From NCBI GenBank assembly GCA_016840465.1, contig JAEOSH010000016.1, forward strand, positions 1-40,925: a stretch of 40,925 nt of DNA, in the 5' to 3' direction. A program made the position numbers and the translations under genes. Below the pieces are notes generated by a model. The model was not told the origin of the DNA, searched no databases, and saw only the letters and a program-made list of their open reading frames with translations. Within the stretch, counting starts at the first letter, position 1. Each line of letters opens with the position of its first letter. Shown piece after piece: positions 3,905 to 35,266 of this stretch. Origin of the DNA: Candidatus Baldrarchaeum yapensis. Its GTDB lineage: Archaea > Asgardarchaeota > Baldrarchaeia > Baldrarchaeales > Baldrarchaeaceae.

Positions 3905-4081
3905 TCACTTCTTTTCTTCCTTCTTTATTTCCTTTTTCCATTCTTTTATTATGTCCAAATTTTTATCCTCAAAGGAGAGGTTCTTTGCTTCTAGAGGCTT
4001 TCCAAGCCACTTCTTGTAGAAGGTCTTCAGATCCGGAAGGAACTCGAATATTACGGGATATTCGGGCGGCATGTTTGTCAT
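3905..4081 (-). CDS. Small charged protein coupled to the Ras-like GTPase
   Basis: A 58-residue frame begins with ATG at 4081-4079, overlapping the GTPase stop in an ATGA arrangement, and ends with TGA at 3905-3907. The N-terminal half has a hydrophobic and aromatic pattern (PEYPVIFEFLPDLKTFYKKW). The C-terminal half is a lysine/glutamate-rich helix ending IKKEEKK. There are no cysteines and no membrane segment. The translational coupling and the ordered hydrophobic pattern argue for a real product, perhaps an accessory of the GTPase. I do not recognise the family. Confidence 0.65.
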   Translation of the reverse strand: MTNMPPEYPVIFEFLPDLKTFYKKWLGKPLEAKNLSFEDKNLDIIKEWKKEIKKEEKK

Positions 4082-4599
4082 AGAGTCTCCTTCTTCTTTC
4101 TCGCCAAGAACTCGTTCAGCTTCACATATTCGAATATCATGTCAAAGAGTCTGCCGACATTTTCTTTAAGTAATGCTGATGTTTGGAGGTAGAATTTCAC
4201 GTTTATTTTCTTTTTAAGTTCGTCTATTGCTTTTTCTACAGTTTCGTCATCTATTTTCTTAATATCTCTCTTATTCCCGACAACTATGACAGTCGTGTCC
4301 TTTCCTGCAAACTTAGTTATGTGATCAGCCCATGTGGATAGAAGACTCTCGAGCGTTTCGGGTCTTGACAGATCAAACACTAATACTACGAGGGATGCAC
4401 CTTTAAGTAAGTCTATTATTGCTTTTCTGAACCACTCCTGCCCAGCAAAGTCCCATACTACGATCTTGTAATTATCCTTTGTGAAGGTGTAGAAATCGAC
4501 CCCTCTTGTTGACCTTACCTCCGCAATACTCTCGCCCATGAACGCCTTTATTAAAGATGTCTTCCCGACAGCCGATTCTCCGACAAATGCTACTTTCAT
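4078..4599 (-). CDS. Ras-superfamily small GTPase (Rab/Ras-like)
   Basis: All five G motifs are intact: G1 GESAVGKT at residues 7-14, G2 Thr31, G3 DFAGQE at 50-55 including the catalytic-type Gln54, G4 NKRD at 109-112 and G5 TSA at 140-142. Length is 173 aa, a bare G domain with a basic tail (RKKKETL) and no C-terminal Cys for lipidation. Start is ATG 4599; a TTG at 4608 overlapping the upstream stop (TTGA) has the better spaced GGAGG and would add only LIP before the Met. The gene follows a Roadblock gene by five bases and is coupled to a 58-aa gene. In bacteria and Asgard archaea such GTPases pair with Roadblock proteins that act as GAPs or scaffolds; here this is inferred from position. 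Confidence 0.92.
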   Translation of the reverse strand: MKVAFVGESAVGKTSLIKAFMGESIAEVRSTRGVDFYTFTKDNYKIVVWDFAGQEWFRKAIIDLLKGASLVVLVFDLSRPETLESLLSTWADHITKFAGKDTTVIVVGNKRDIKKIDDETVEKAIDELKKKINVKFYLQTSALLKENVGRLFDMIFEYVKLNEFLARKKKETL

Positions 4600-4604
4600 G
4601 GGTA

Positions 4605-4994
4605 TCAAGCAAAGACCCTCCTCACGCTTGTCATCAGGTCCATTATTATTTCCCTTGAGGTCTCCATTTCCTCCTTTGGGCATGATGTGACAAATATTAT
4701 CCCGTAATCCTCGTATCCTATGAGTAGGACGTTATCTCCCTTATCAATATGCATTATTACTGATCCTTTGAACTCCTTGACATTCATTAGGTCTCTGAGT
4801 TTGTTAATAGCATTGTGCACCAGCGATATCGCAACATCCTCGTCCACACTGCTTTTAAAGAGTATAAATCCGTCTATTGTGGATATAACGAGGTTTTTGA
4901 GGTTACTGATCTTTTTTGCTTTCTTATCTATCACCTTTTGAAAACTGTCCGGTTTTCTTCTGAAAATTTTGTCCAGTAATTTCTGAGGGTGCAT
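4605..4994 (-). CDS. Roadblock/LC7-like protein (operon copy 2)
   Basis: A 129-residue protein with the alternating strand-helix pattern of the Roadblock/LC7 fold. A first strand with NLVISTIDGFILFKS is followed by a helix with AISLVHNAINKLRDLM, then strands around GSVIMHIDKGDNVLLIGYEDYGIIFVTS and a closing helix. The IDGFILFKS segment matches the TDGLILAT signature seen in the other Roadblock protein of this operon, but is more diverged. Family members such as MglB regulate small GTPases or act as Ragulator-type platforms. The ATG at 4994 is preceded by GGTGG. The GTPase gene begins immediately downstream, so the two products are probably made together. Confidence 0.75.
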   Translation of the reverse strand: MHPQKLLDKIFRRKPDSFQKVIDKKAKKISNLKNLVISTIDGFILFKSSVDEDVAISLVHNAINKLRDLMNVKEFKGSVIMHIDKGDNVLLIGYEDYGIIFVTSCPKEEMETSREIIMDLMTSVRRVFA

Positions 4995-5028
4995 GCCACC
5001 ACCGAAAAAAGATGTTGAAGAGGTGGTA

Positions 5029-5511
5029 TTATTGCTTTTTTATGTAAGCTATCTTGAGGATACATTTCTCGTTGTTCAAGTCAGTTTCATGCTCTATGGA
5101 CCCTACAGTAACATTTCCCAACACTGTCTGTACGAACGCCGATGCGAGAGATATCAGGCAAAGAGGGCAGGTTTTTTCTCCCTTTTCTGCGGCGAGCCTT
5201 GCCATTTCGAGAAAATCACATCCCGTGACCTCGCATGTTACCTCGTACGCGTCTCCTGCATCTTCAATCTTGAGGTTAACGTTCTTAACAACACCCATCT
5301 GTTTTGCAAACTTTGCGTAACTCTCGATAAAGTTTGTGATGTTCGAGTAATTAAATCCGTACTCTTGAACTTTTTTCATCAAAAAACCAATGTCCTTGAC
5401 GAGTATATCGGCGACACGTCTGTATATGAGTTTTAATGATATGCCTAAGTTCTCTATCGCTTTGAACAAATAATAAAATATCCATCCACGCGCAAAACGT
5501 TGCTTGCTCAT
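5029..5511 (-). CDS. Putative V4R/TRAPP-like protein in the GTPase operon
   Basis: A 160-residue soluble protein. A helical first half (IFYYLFKAIENLGISLKLIYRR) is followed by strands around NVNLKIEDAGDAYEVTCEVTGC. A helix bearing CPLCLISLASAFVQTVLG comes next, and two final strands end NEKCILKIAYIKK. The order of helices and the closing G-x-E-x-C-x-L-x-I strand resemble the V4R and TRAPP/Bet3 fold, where a C-terminal cysteine helps bind ligand or metal. Cys residues in CDF, CPLC and EKC are the candidates. ATG 5511 has GAGGTGAG upstream. Position between two Roadblock genes supports a role with the GTPase; TRAPP proteins are GTPase exchange factors in eukaryotes. The fold assignment is tentative and the reading frame is secure. 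Confidence 0.6.
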   Translation of the reverse strand: MSKQRFARGWIFYYLFKAIENLGISLKLIYRRVADILVKDIGFLMKKVQEYGFNYSNITNFIESYAKFAKQMGVVKNVNLKIEDAGDAYEVTCEVTGCDFLEMARLAAEKGEKTCPLCLISLASAFVQTVLGNVTVGSIEHETDLNNEKCILKIAYIKKQ

Positions 5512-5534
5512 ATTCTCACCTCAATTCAAAGTAA

Positions 5535-5942
5535 TTATATTTTTTTCAGAACTTCTCTAATTTTGTCAGCAGCCCTTTTCATTTCAACGAACATGAGACC
5601 CAAGTTTGCATCCTTTTGAGCGATAGCAACAAGAGATACTTCCGGGGTAACGGATACAAGCATTATTATCCTGTTTGACCCGCGAATTATCGCATTTTCT
5701 AGAGTTCCACCACCCAACTCCTCAAGAACTCGCGCCCCCACTCCGAAGACGGATGCGCTCATCGCGGCTACGATGTCCCCATCTATATCCTCGGGCAATG
5801 CGGTAGCGAGAATGAGACCATCGGTCCTGACAATAATTGATCCTTCTATTTCGGCGTCCTTTCTTTCCATCTCCTTCAAAATGGATGTTAGAGTTTCTCT
5901 GTATGAAACGATACTTTTCTTTCCTGATTTAAAAATTAGCAT
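5535..5942 (-). CDS. Roadblock/LC7 domain protein (operon copy 1)
   Basis: A clear Roadblock/LC7 protein. It has a helix RETLTSILKEMERKDAEIEG, the strand SIIVRTDGLILATALP, helix DIVAAMSASVFGVGARVLEELG, strands TLENAIIRGSNRIIMLVSV and SLVAIAQKDANLGLM, and a final helix of AADKIREVLKKI. From ATG 5942 it is 135 aa, the usual length. I chose this start because GGAGGT lies exactly six bases before it (5954-5949). The frame is open to an ATG at 6035, but an AT-rich TATA-like stretch sits next to that codon. It is the first gene of the minus-strand operon (V4R-like gene 23 bases downstream) and a good candidate MglB-like GAP or scaffold for the Ras-like GTPase. Confidence 0.88.
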   Translation of the reverse strand: MLIFKSGKKSIVSYRETLTSILKEMERKDAEIEGSIIVRTDGLILATALPEDIDGDIVAAMSASVFGVGARVLEELGGGTLENAIIRGSNRIIMLVSVTPEVSLVAIAQKDANLGLMFVEMKRAADKIREVLKKI

Positions 5943-6144
5943 ATGCGGACCTCCATCAACTAATAAATATTCTCGATATTTTTCGATCTGAATATTGCCG
6001 TGTCCCTTCTGCAAGAAATACTGGTTACCTTTCATTTTTATATTTCGTTTTTCTTGCGATAAGGCATGTAACTTGTTTTAAGTTGGCAATTCCAAGTGAC
6101 GAGAATCTCTGTAACCCCCGAGCACATCGGAGAACGCTGAATAA

Positions 6145-34558: not shown

Positions 34559-35266
34559 TTACATTCCCTTCAGCAGTTCCATCTTTCTGATGCCACTTAT
34601 ATACGTAACAAGACCTTTTGATGAATATTCTCCCAACGTTATGAGTACTCGTGCCCTCGGAAGTCCGAGTTCTTCCGCAATATCCTTAACCGTGTGATCC
34701 CCATCGCATAATTCGAGCATTTTCCTTACGGTTTCATCTTTTATCTTTTTCAAGATTGTTCTATCCGTGAGAATCGGGTAGTTTGCAGGCTCAACCTCAA
34801 CACGTGGAGGCGCAGGTTTCTCCTCAACAACATGAACTTCCTCAGGGACGGCCTTTTCCGGAGGAGGCGGTGGTGGCGCTCGGGGGACCGTTACTTCCTT
34901 AACCTCAACAGGAGCACCTATCATTAGGCTTTCCAACTCCTTAAACTCGCTATTTAGAAGTGATGCGAGCCTTTTTGCTATTACAATCATGATTCCTTCG
35001 GCTTCTTGGCTATCGAGCGCAAACGCGAGTTTCTCGGTCACTTTATATATCAAAAGGTGGGACTCGCCTAGTGTTTTTATCTGGTAATCGCCAATGTCCC
35101 AAACAGGAAGGGAAGACTTGACTATCTTCTTAGCTGTCTCGAGCGCTTGAGGAGATAGGTTGCTATAGAGGACCTCGCCCTCATCGTTTATTATTGCGAA
35201 ATCGCTTCTGATGGGTAGTGATATTGCTATTCTTGAGCCTATGTCTTGAGCCTTCTCCTTTGCCAT
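34559..35266 (-). CDS. Roadblock/longin-like domain joined to a winged helix by a proline-rich linker
   Basis: A 235-residue protein in three parts. Residues about 10-115 alternate strands and helices like a Roadblock/longin fold (SDFAIINDEGEVLYSNL, then SHLLIYKVTEKLAFALD and GIMIVIAKRLASLLN). Residues about 118-165 are a linker rich in Pro, Glu and Val, including a run of six prolines. Residues about 170-235 form a winged helix (DRTILKKIKDETVRKMLELCDG, then KDIAEELGLPRARVLITLGEYSSKGLV). Such a fusion could link a GTPase partner to transcription. ATG at 35266 gives MAKEKAQ. It stands alone, divergent from the sRNA and nitrilase region. The N-terminal fold call is moderate; the winged helix is good. 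Confidence 0.65.
   Translation of the reverse strand: MAKEKAQDIGSRIAISLPIRSDFAIINDEGEVLYSNLSPQALETAKKIVKSSLPVWDIGDYQIKTLGESHLLIYKVTEKLAFALDSQEAEGIMIVIAKRLASLLNSEFKELESLMIGAPVEVKEVTVPRAPPPPPPEKAVPEEVHVVEEKPAPPRVEVEPANYPILTDRTILKKIKDETVRKMLELCDGDHTVKDIAEELGLPRARVLITLGEYSSKGLVTYISGIRKMELLKGM

Follow-up and report, generated by a model that had tools for sequence, protein, structure and literature searches.

A conserved Asgard operon that places a Rab-like GTPase with two Roadblock proteins and a V4R-like protein

MglA-MglB is a bacterial system composed of a Ras-like GTPase and a Roadblock GAP. In the genomes of the Asgard archaea, the group closest to eukaryotes, small GTPases and Roadblock proteins number in the dozens. 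Structures of Asgard Rab, Roadblock and TRAPPC3 proteins have been solved one by one (Tran et al. 2024, PMC10933270), and in Thor-TRAPPC3 and PoxR four cysteines, the positions of which vary, coordinate a zinc ion and thereby anchor the sheet onto helix D (PMC10933270). V4R domains elsewhere serve as ligand sensors, as in MopR (PMC10933270). In the TRAPP core, the longin C1/C4 centre forms the active site and is flanked by the Bet3-type subunit C3 (TRAPPC3) (PMC10152722). The small GTPase genes of MK-D1 generally lie outside operons with Roadblock, longin or TRAPPC3 genes, and the matching of GTPases to their GAPs and GEFs by genome layout was stated to be difficult for this organism (PMC10933270). 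An operon uniting GTPase, Roadblock and V4R-like genes was not found in the literature searched, a coverage outside which most subscription journals and preprints fall, and none is described in the passages found of papers dealing with V4R and Roadblock proteins of Ignicoccus.

The window analyzed here is a stretch of 40,925 nucleotides which makes up an entire contig (JAEOSH010000016.1) of the 2.27-Mb genome of Candidatus Baldrarchaeum yapensis. Five open reading frames (ORFs), P0001 to P0005, follow one another on the minus strand from position 5942 to 3905, separated by 23, 34 and 5 bases and then by an ATGA overlap of 4 bases; re-examination of the window reproduced exactly the coordinates, strand and spacing reported in an earlier note on this DNA. 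Most of the starts are preceded by purine-rich, ribosome-binding-like sequences, and a weak putative archaeal BRE/TATA promoter, AAACGAAATATAAAAA, was recognized by eye upstream of the operon (6035-6050, minus strand), its core CGAAATATAAAA occurring once in the window with up to one mismatch against a chance expectation of 0.43. The contig also carries a proteasome alpha gene, which shares 72% identity with that of a genome of the same order, and a mis-binned contig was rejected on this ground. The origin is archaeal, more precisely Asgard and Baldrarchaeia-related.

The GTPase of the operon (P0004, 173 aa; 4078-4599, minus strand) matches the Pfam Ras family with an E-value of 1.6e-27, and its nearest solved relatives are Rab6 (E 1.6e-20). 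Motif inspection and alignment confirmed that all G motifs are kept, including Gln54, as had been claimed for this protein: G1 (GESAVGKT), T31, DFAGQ harboring Gln54, NKRD and TSA complete the series from G1 to G5. A RabF1-type motif is present as RGVDF, which reads IGVDF or IGIDF in relatives, and the remaining RabF motifs are partial only. According to Pfam, P0004 is made of the G domain alone and is devoid of the C-terminal Roadblock domain of Rag-type proteins. Prenylation cysteines are likewise absent from its C-terminus (...RKKKETL), and an action of P0004 at membranes is thus unproven, the protein having no C-terminal cysteine for a lipid anchor.

Both proteins described earlier as Roadblocks could be retained as such, one by sequence profile and the other solely by predicted fold. 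P0001 (135 aa; 5535-5942, minus strand) passes the Pfam Robl_LC7 profile with an E-value of 5.7e-15 and 55.3 bits, for a cut-off of 23, and is 42-46% identical to Roadblock proteins adjoining V4R-like genes in other Asgard genomes. P0003 (129 aa; 4605-4994, minus strand) is highly divergent: it matches neither Robl_LC7 nor any other Pfam family, reaches 63% in a profile comparison with a Roadblock alignment and, used as a lone query against other Asgard genomes, retrieved no relative at E<0.001. Its AlphaFold2 model (pLDDT 73) matches the Thor Roadblock 7f8m, MglB and the Roadblock parts of RagA/C (probability 1.00, E 4e-5 to about 1e-3), such that, on the strength of the model, P0003 is a Roadblock protein by fold (the fold alpha-beta-beta-alpha-beta-beta-beta-alpha). 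Elsewhere in the window, positions 34559-35266 encode a 235-aa protein with a Roadblock-like-looking N-terminal part and a winged-helix C-terminus; it has weak Pfam matches only. At another locus of the same genome (L078:2951-6587, contig C64), an MglA/Arf-like GTPase gene is surrounded by a cluster of four Roadblock genes, after which comes an undecaprenyl-diphosphate synthase-like gene.

Between the two Roadblock genes lies P0002 (160 aa; 5029-5511, minus strand), which the earlier note had described as V4R/TRAPP-like. Neither P0002 nor 17 relatives, nor further relatives, had a Pfam match, the cut-off of the V4R family (PF02830) not being reached. Profile comparison of the P0002 family with the canonical V4R proteins of these genomes nevertheless yielded 83-90%, versus 2-4% with Asgard TRAPP proteins and below 1% with Roadblock and GTPase control profiles; for reference, Asgard TRAPP proteins compared with V4R gave 98.8%. 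The model of P0002 (pLDDT 67) runs through three helices, two strands, two helices and two strands (HHHEEHHEE), which is the Bet3/V4R order. A fold search with this model returned nothing at E<0.001; its sole full-length matches, weak ones (TM 0.48, E 0.04), were to the V4R sensor domain of MopR. Against solved structures, P0002 gave chance matches only, whether as a single sequence or as a profile. In the alignment of 18 family sequences, Cys98, Cys115 and Cys118 are invariant and Cys150 is nearly so, and a CPxC motif opens the last of the predicted helices; the four residues are a possible metal site judging from this conservation, and some members of the wider family are without part of them. 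The same alignment contained no stretch with enough conservation for use in a wider scan. Altogether, moderate profile scores and a model with a pLDDT of 67 allow the family to be called V4R-like with moderate confidence, and P0002 probably belongs to the V4R superfamily. The V4R half of the earlier description thus stood at a moderate level, while similarity specific to TRAPP was not detectable. Direct homology of P0002 to TRAPP was rejected on the 2-4% profile comparison and on the lack of a Pfam TRAPP match, and the term "TRAPP-like" is justified for this protein only through the shared superfamily. In the rest of its own genome as well, no match to Pfam TRAPP (PF04051) was found anywhere, and tandem canonical V4R genes occur on locus L079 (contig C52), convergent with genes for a Rab-like GTPase and a TrmB-type regulator. 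A further form of the V4R-like domain, found in many genomes of family f3, follows about 200 hydrophobic residues resembling membrane helices (L236:922-1980, L237:928-1968 and L238:1492-2544) and is a possible membrane-anchored sensor.

The gene order of the operon, the lack of whose conservation would have counted against the earlier note, turned out to be conserved. The GTPase closest to P0004 (61% identity) is encoded in Asgard group archaeon M2_metabat1_scaf2bin.245, a member of another Asgard family, where a Roadblock gene, a gene for a 162-aa V4R-like protein, a divergent Roadblock gene and the GTPase gene succeed one another in an order identical to that of the window; this exact order is known from these two genomes only. 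A search for related loci seeded with P0004 alone found none. By family profile search, V4R-like proteins are present in 66 of 224 Asgard genomes, and their association with Roadblock and GTPase genes spans Asgard lineages. An arrangement of V4R-like, Roadblock and Arf-like GTPase genes, usually followed by one or two further divergent Roadblocks, was seen at 13 loci in 11 genomes; such divergent extra Roadblocks are common. In Baldrarchaeota archaeon Yap30.bin4.67, a genome of the same order as that of the window (one of its contigs is record JAEOSG010000110.1), the run reads Arf-like GTPase, Roadblock, V4R-like, Roadblock, V4R-like. Other loci comprise only a Longin-Roadblock gene and a V4R-like gene, and the association was found again at eight loci that had stayed outside profile building and were retrieved without use of their neighbourhood. 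Same-strand runs with a Roadblock gene accounted for 37 of 73 distinct V4R-like genes, part of which had longer flanks, versus 9 of 98 canonical V4R and TRAPP genes (Fisher p 2e-9), and with equal short flanks V4R-like genes adjoined a Roadblock gene in 14 of 40 cases versus 1 of 97 (p 6e-8), both p-values being indicative only as related genomes are not independent. Runs holding both a Roadblock and a GTPase gene were counted for 22 of the 73 V4R-like genes and for none of the 98 canonical V4R and TRAPP genes; the window itself, missed in this count because P0003 escapes the Roadblock profile, is the 23rd such case.

That unrelated genes came to form this operon by chance, or that the locus is an artefact of assembly, is disfavoured by this recurrence across Asgard and by the repetition of the order in an independent assembly, in addition to the lineage of the contig attested by its proteasome alpha gene. 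What speaks for some joining of unrelated DNA is confined to the end of the run, namely the 58-aa ORF P0005 (3905-4081, minus strand), which overlaps the GTPase stop codon through the ATGA. P0005 matches residues 137-163 of the PDB entry 5svb_C (E 6.4e-5) and is 52% identical to the end of a full-length, 210-aa gamma-like protein whose gene, at locus L206 of a different genome, neighbours that of a larger subunit; it covers only the C-terminal ~55 residues of acetone carboxylase gamma and is not a full-length subunit. No other copy of this subunit, full-length or not, was found in the same genome, and the matching operon (L060/L125) has no 58-aa ORF beside its GTPase gene. By its sequence, P0005 is a piece of a metabolic gene that has been captured here, and its membership in the operon module, as put forward earlier, had to be rejected. 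For the run as a whole we consider chance or artefact highly improbable; rather, P0001 to P0004 probably make up a four-gene signalling operon with the 58-aa ORF outside the module.

In a phylogenetic tree, P0004 falls in a clade with the GTPases of families f16 and f19 (support 100/99). A separate, Arf-like group gathers the GTPases of the V4R-like/Roadblock cassettes of other lineages together with a second GTPase of the window, which is cut by the contig end (3-593, minus strand). The latter groups with the GTPase of locus L074 (93/75), and its orthologue in the same-order genome Yap30.bin4.67 is the gene that starts the Roadblock/V4R-like cassette; a second cassette may therefore continue beyond 3-593 on another contig. 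That the same Roadblock/V4R-like kit is joined to different GTPases favours a functional module over the inheritance of a single neighbourhood.

The reading we favour, and regard as reasonably probable, is that of a GTPase switch regulated through a platform of Roadblock proteins, to which a V4R-like subunit sensing a ligand or the membrane belongs as well. P0004 would be the switch, on which a homo- or heterodimer of P0001 and P0003 would dock so as to control its nucleotide cycle or its place, after the example of MglB for MglA and of the Roadblock dimers of Ragulator. The V4R-like protein would bind to the Roadblock platform and add a hydrophobic pocket, braced by a metal, that could accommodate a lipid or small molecule and through which a membrane or ligand cue would be linked to the GTPase. 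Of this scheme, we infer the complex, the ligand and the direction of regulation, in which the platform may act as GAP, GEF or scaffold.

An MglA/MglB-like system of two parts, with the V4R-like protein standing apart as a sensor or ligand-binding protein that is only co-expressed, would account for the Roadblock-GTPase pairs that are common without a V4R-like gene in f16, and would agree with the ligand-sensing role of V4R domains elsewhere (MopR; PMC10933270). Yet the adjacency of V4R-like and Roadblock genes is the most constant pairing of all and is found with no GTPase alongside in Jordarchaeia and other lineages; the V4R-like protein thus seems tied to the Roadblock itself, and we find the two-part explanation unlikely on the whole. 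Against the favoured reading, many V4R-like copies stand alone in f12, in one genome of which 14 V4R-like paralogues were counted, those inspected having no Roadblock neighbours.

The eukaryotic parallel invites another explanation, namely that the locus reflects a forerunner of Rab/TRAPP in which a Roadblock or longin protein and the V4R-like protein jointly serve as nucleotide exchange factor for the GTPase, with the layout of the TRAPP core. The same two kinds of fold do adjoin a Rab-like GTPase here, and in seven genomes of family f3 a Rab-like GTPase gene is followed by Roadblock and V4R-like genes, with a gene for a Longin/Roadblock-type protein preceding them in six of the seven. Profile comparison, however, does not bring the P0002 family nearer to TRAPP than to V4R (2-4% versus 83-90%), and none of 34 Asgard TRAPP genes has a GTPase gene in its run; we consider a TRAPP forerunner unlikely. 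Longin + Roadblock fusions were observed next to Roadblock and V4R-like genes at three loci (L196:169-930, L276:1733-2551 and L261:1338-2138); the L196 fusion matches the first longin domain of Fuz/MON1/HPS1 barely above the cut-off, and the fusions are possible relatives of the tri-longin exchange factors. A broader proposal, which we put forward only tentatively, is that an Asgard-wide complex of V4R-like protein, Roadblock or longin protein and GTPase, the operons of which pair GTPases directly with their regulators, was the source of the principle shared by TRAPP and Ragulator, namely that Bet3-type and longin/Roadblock proteins together make a platform which acts on GTPases of the Rab, Rag or Arf kind.

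To return to the sensor-equipped switch that we prefer, similar operons recur in many Asgard lineages, and eukaryote-like parts therefore probably work together already in archaea. The conserved operons provide ready-made, testable pairings of one Rab-like or Arf-like GTPase with specific Roadblocks and with a V4R-like family that had remained unannotated, and by them the association of a TRAPP-superfamily-like protein with a GTPase would predate eukaryotes. In mechanism, the module may be a counterpart of TRAPP-Rab or Rag-Ragulator. The protein kinds are those of the Asgard Rab, Roadblock and TRAPPC3 proteins studied by Tran et al. (2024, PMC10933270), with a possible metal site recalling the four-cysteine zinc site found there; the difference lies in the occurrence of GTPase/Roadblock/V4R-like operons in many lineages and in a V4R-like family missed by Pfam.

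As in MglA-MglB, a small GTPase is encoded with a Roadblock, and the predicted fold of P0003 is close to MglB structures; unlike MglA, the GTPase of the window is Ras/Rab-like with Gln54 in cis, and the operon brings in two Roadblocks that differ from each other, together with a V4R-like subunit. P0002 shares with the canonical archaeal V4R proteins (PF02830) the order of helices and strands, the cysteine regions and a moderate profile similarity, whereas it has no Pfam match, carries a CPxC on its last helix where they have one cysteine following strand 2, and belongs to a family that sits with Roadblock genes, a context that the canonical genes mostly lack. Rag-Ragulator (LAMTOR) likewise combines a Ras-like GTPase with pairs of different Roadblocks, but P0004 has no C-terminal Roadblock domain and Ragulator has no V4R/TRAPP-type subunit; the operon is not a member of that system. 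TRAPP-Rab resembles it in setting a Bet3/V4R-superfamily-like protein and a longin/Roadblock-type fold beside a Rab-like GTPase, and differs from it in that P0002 has no TRAPP profile match and that the window has a Roadblock where TRAPP has a longin.
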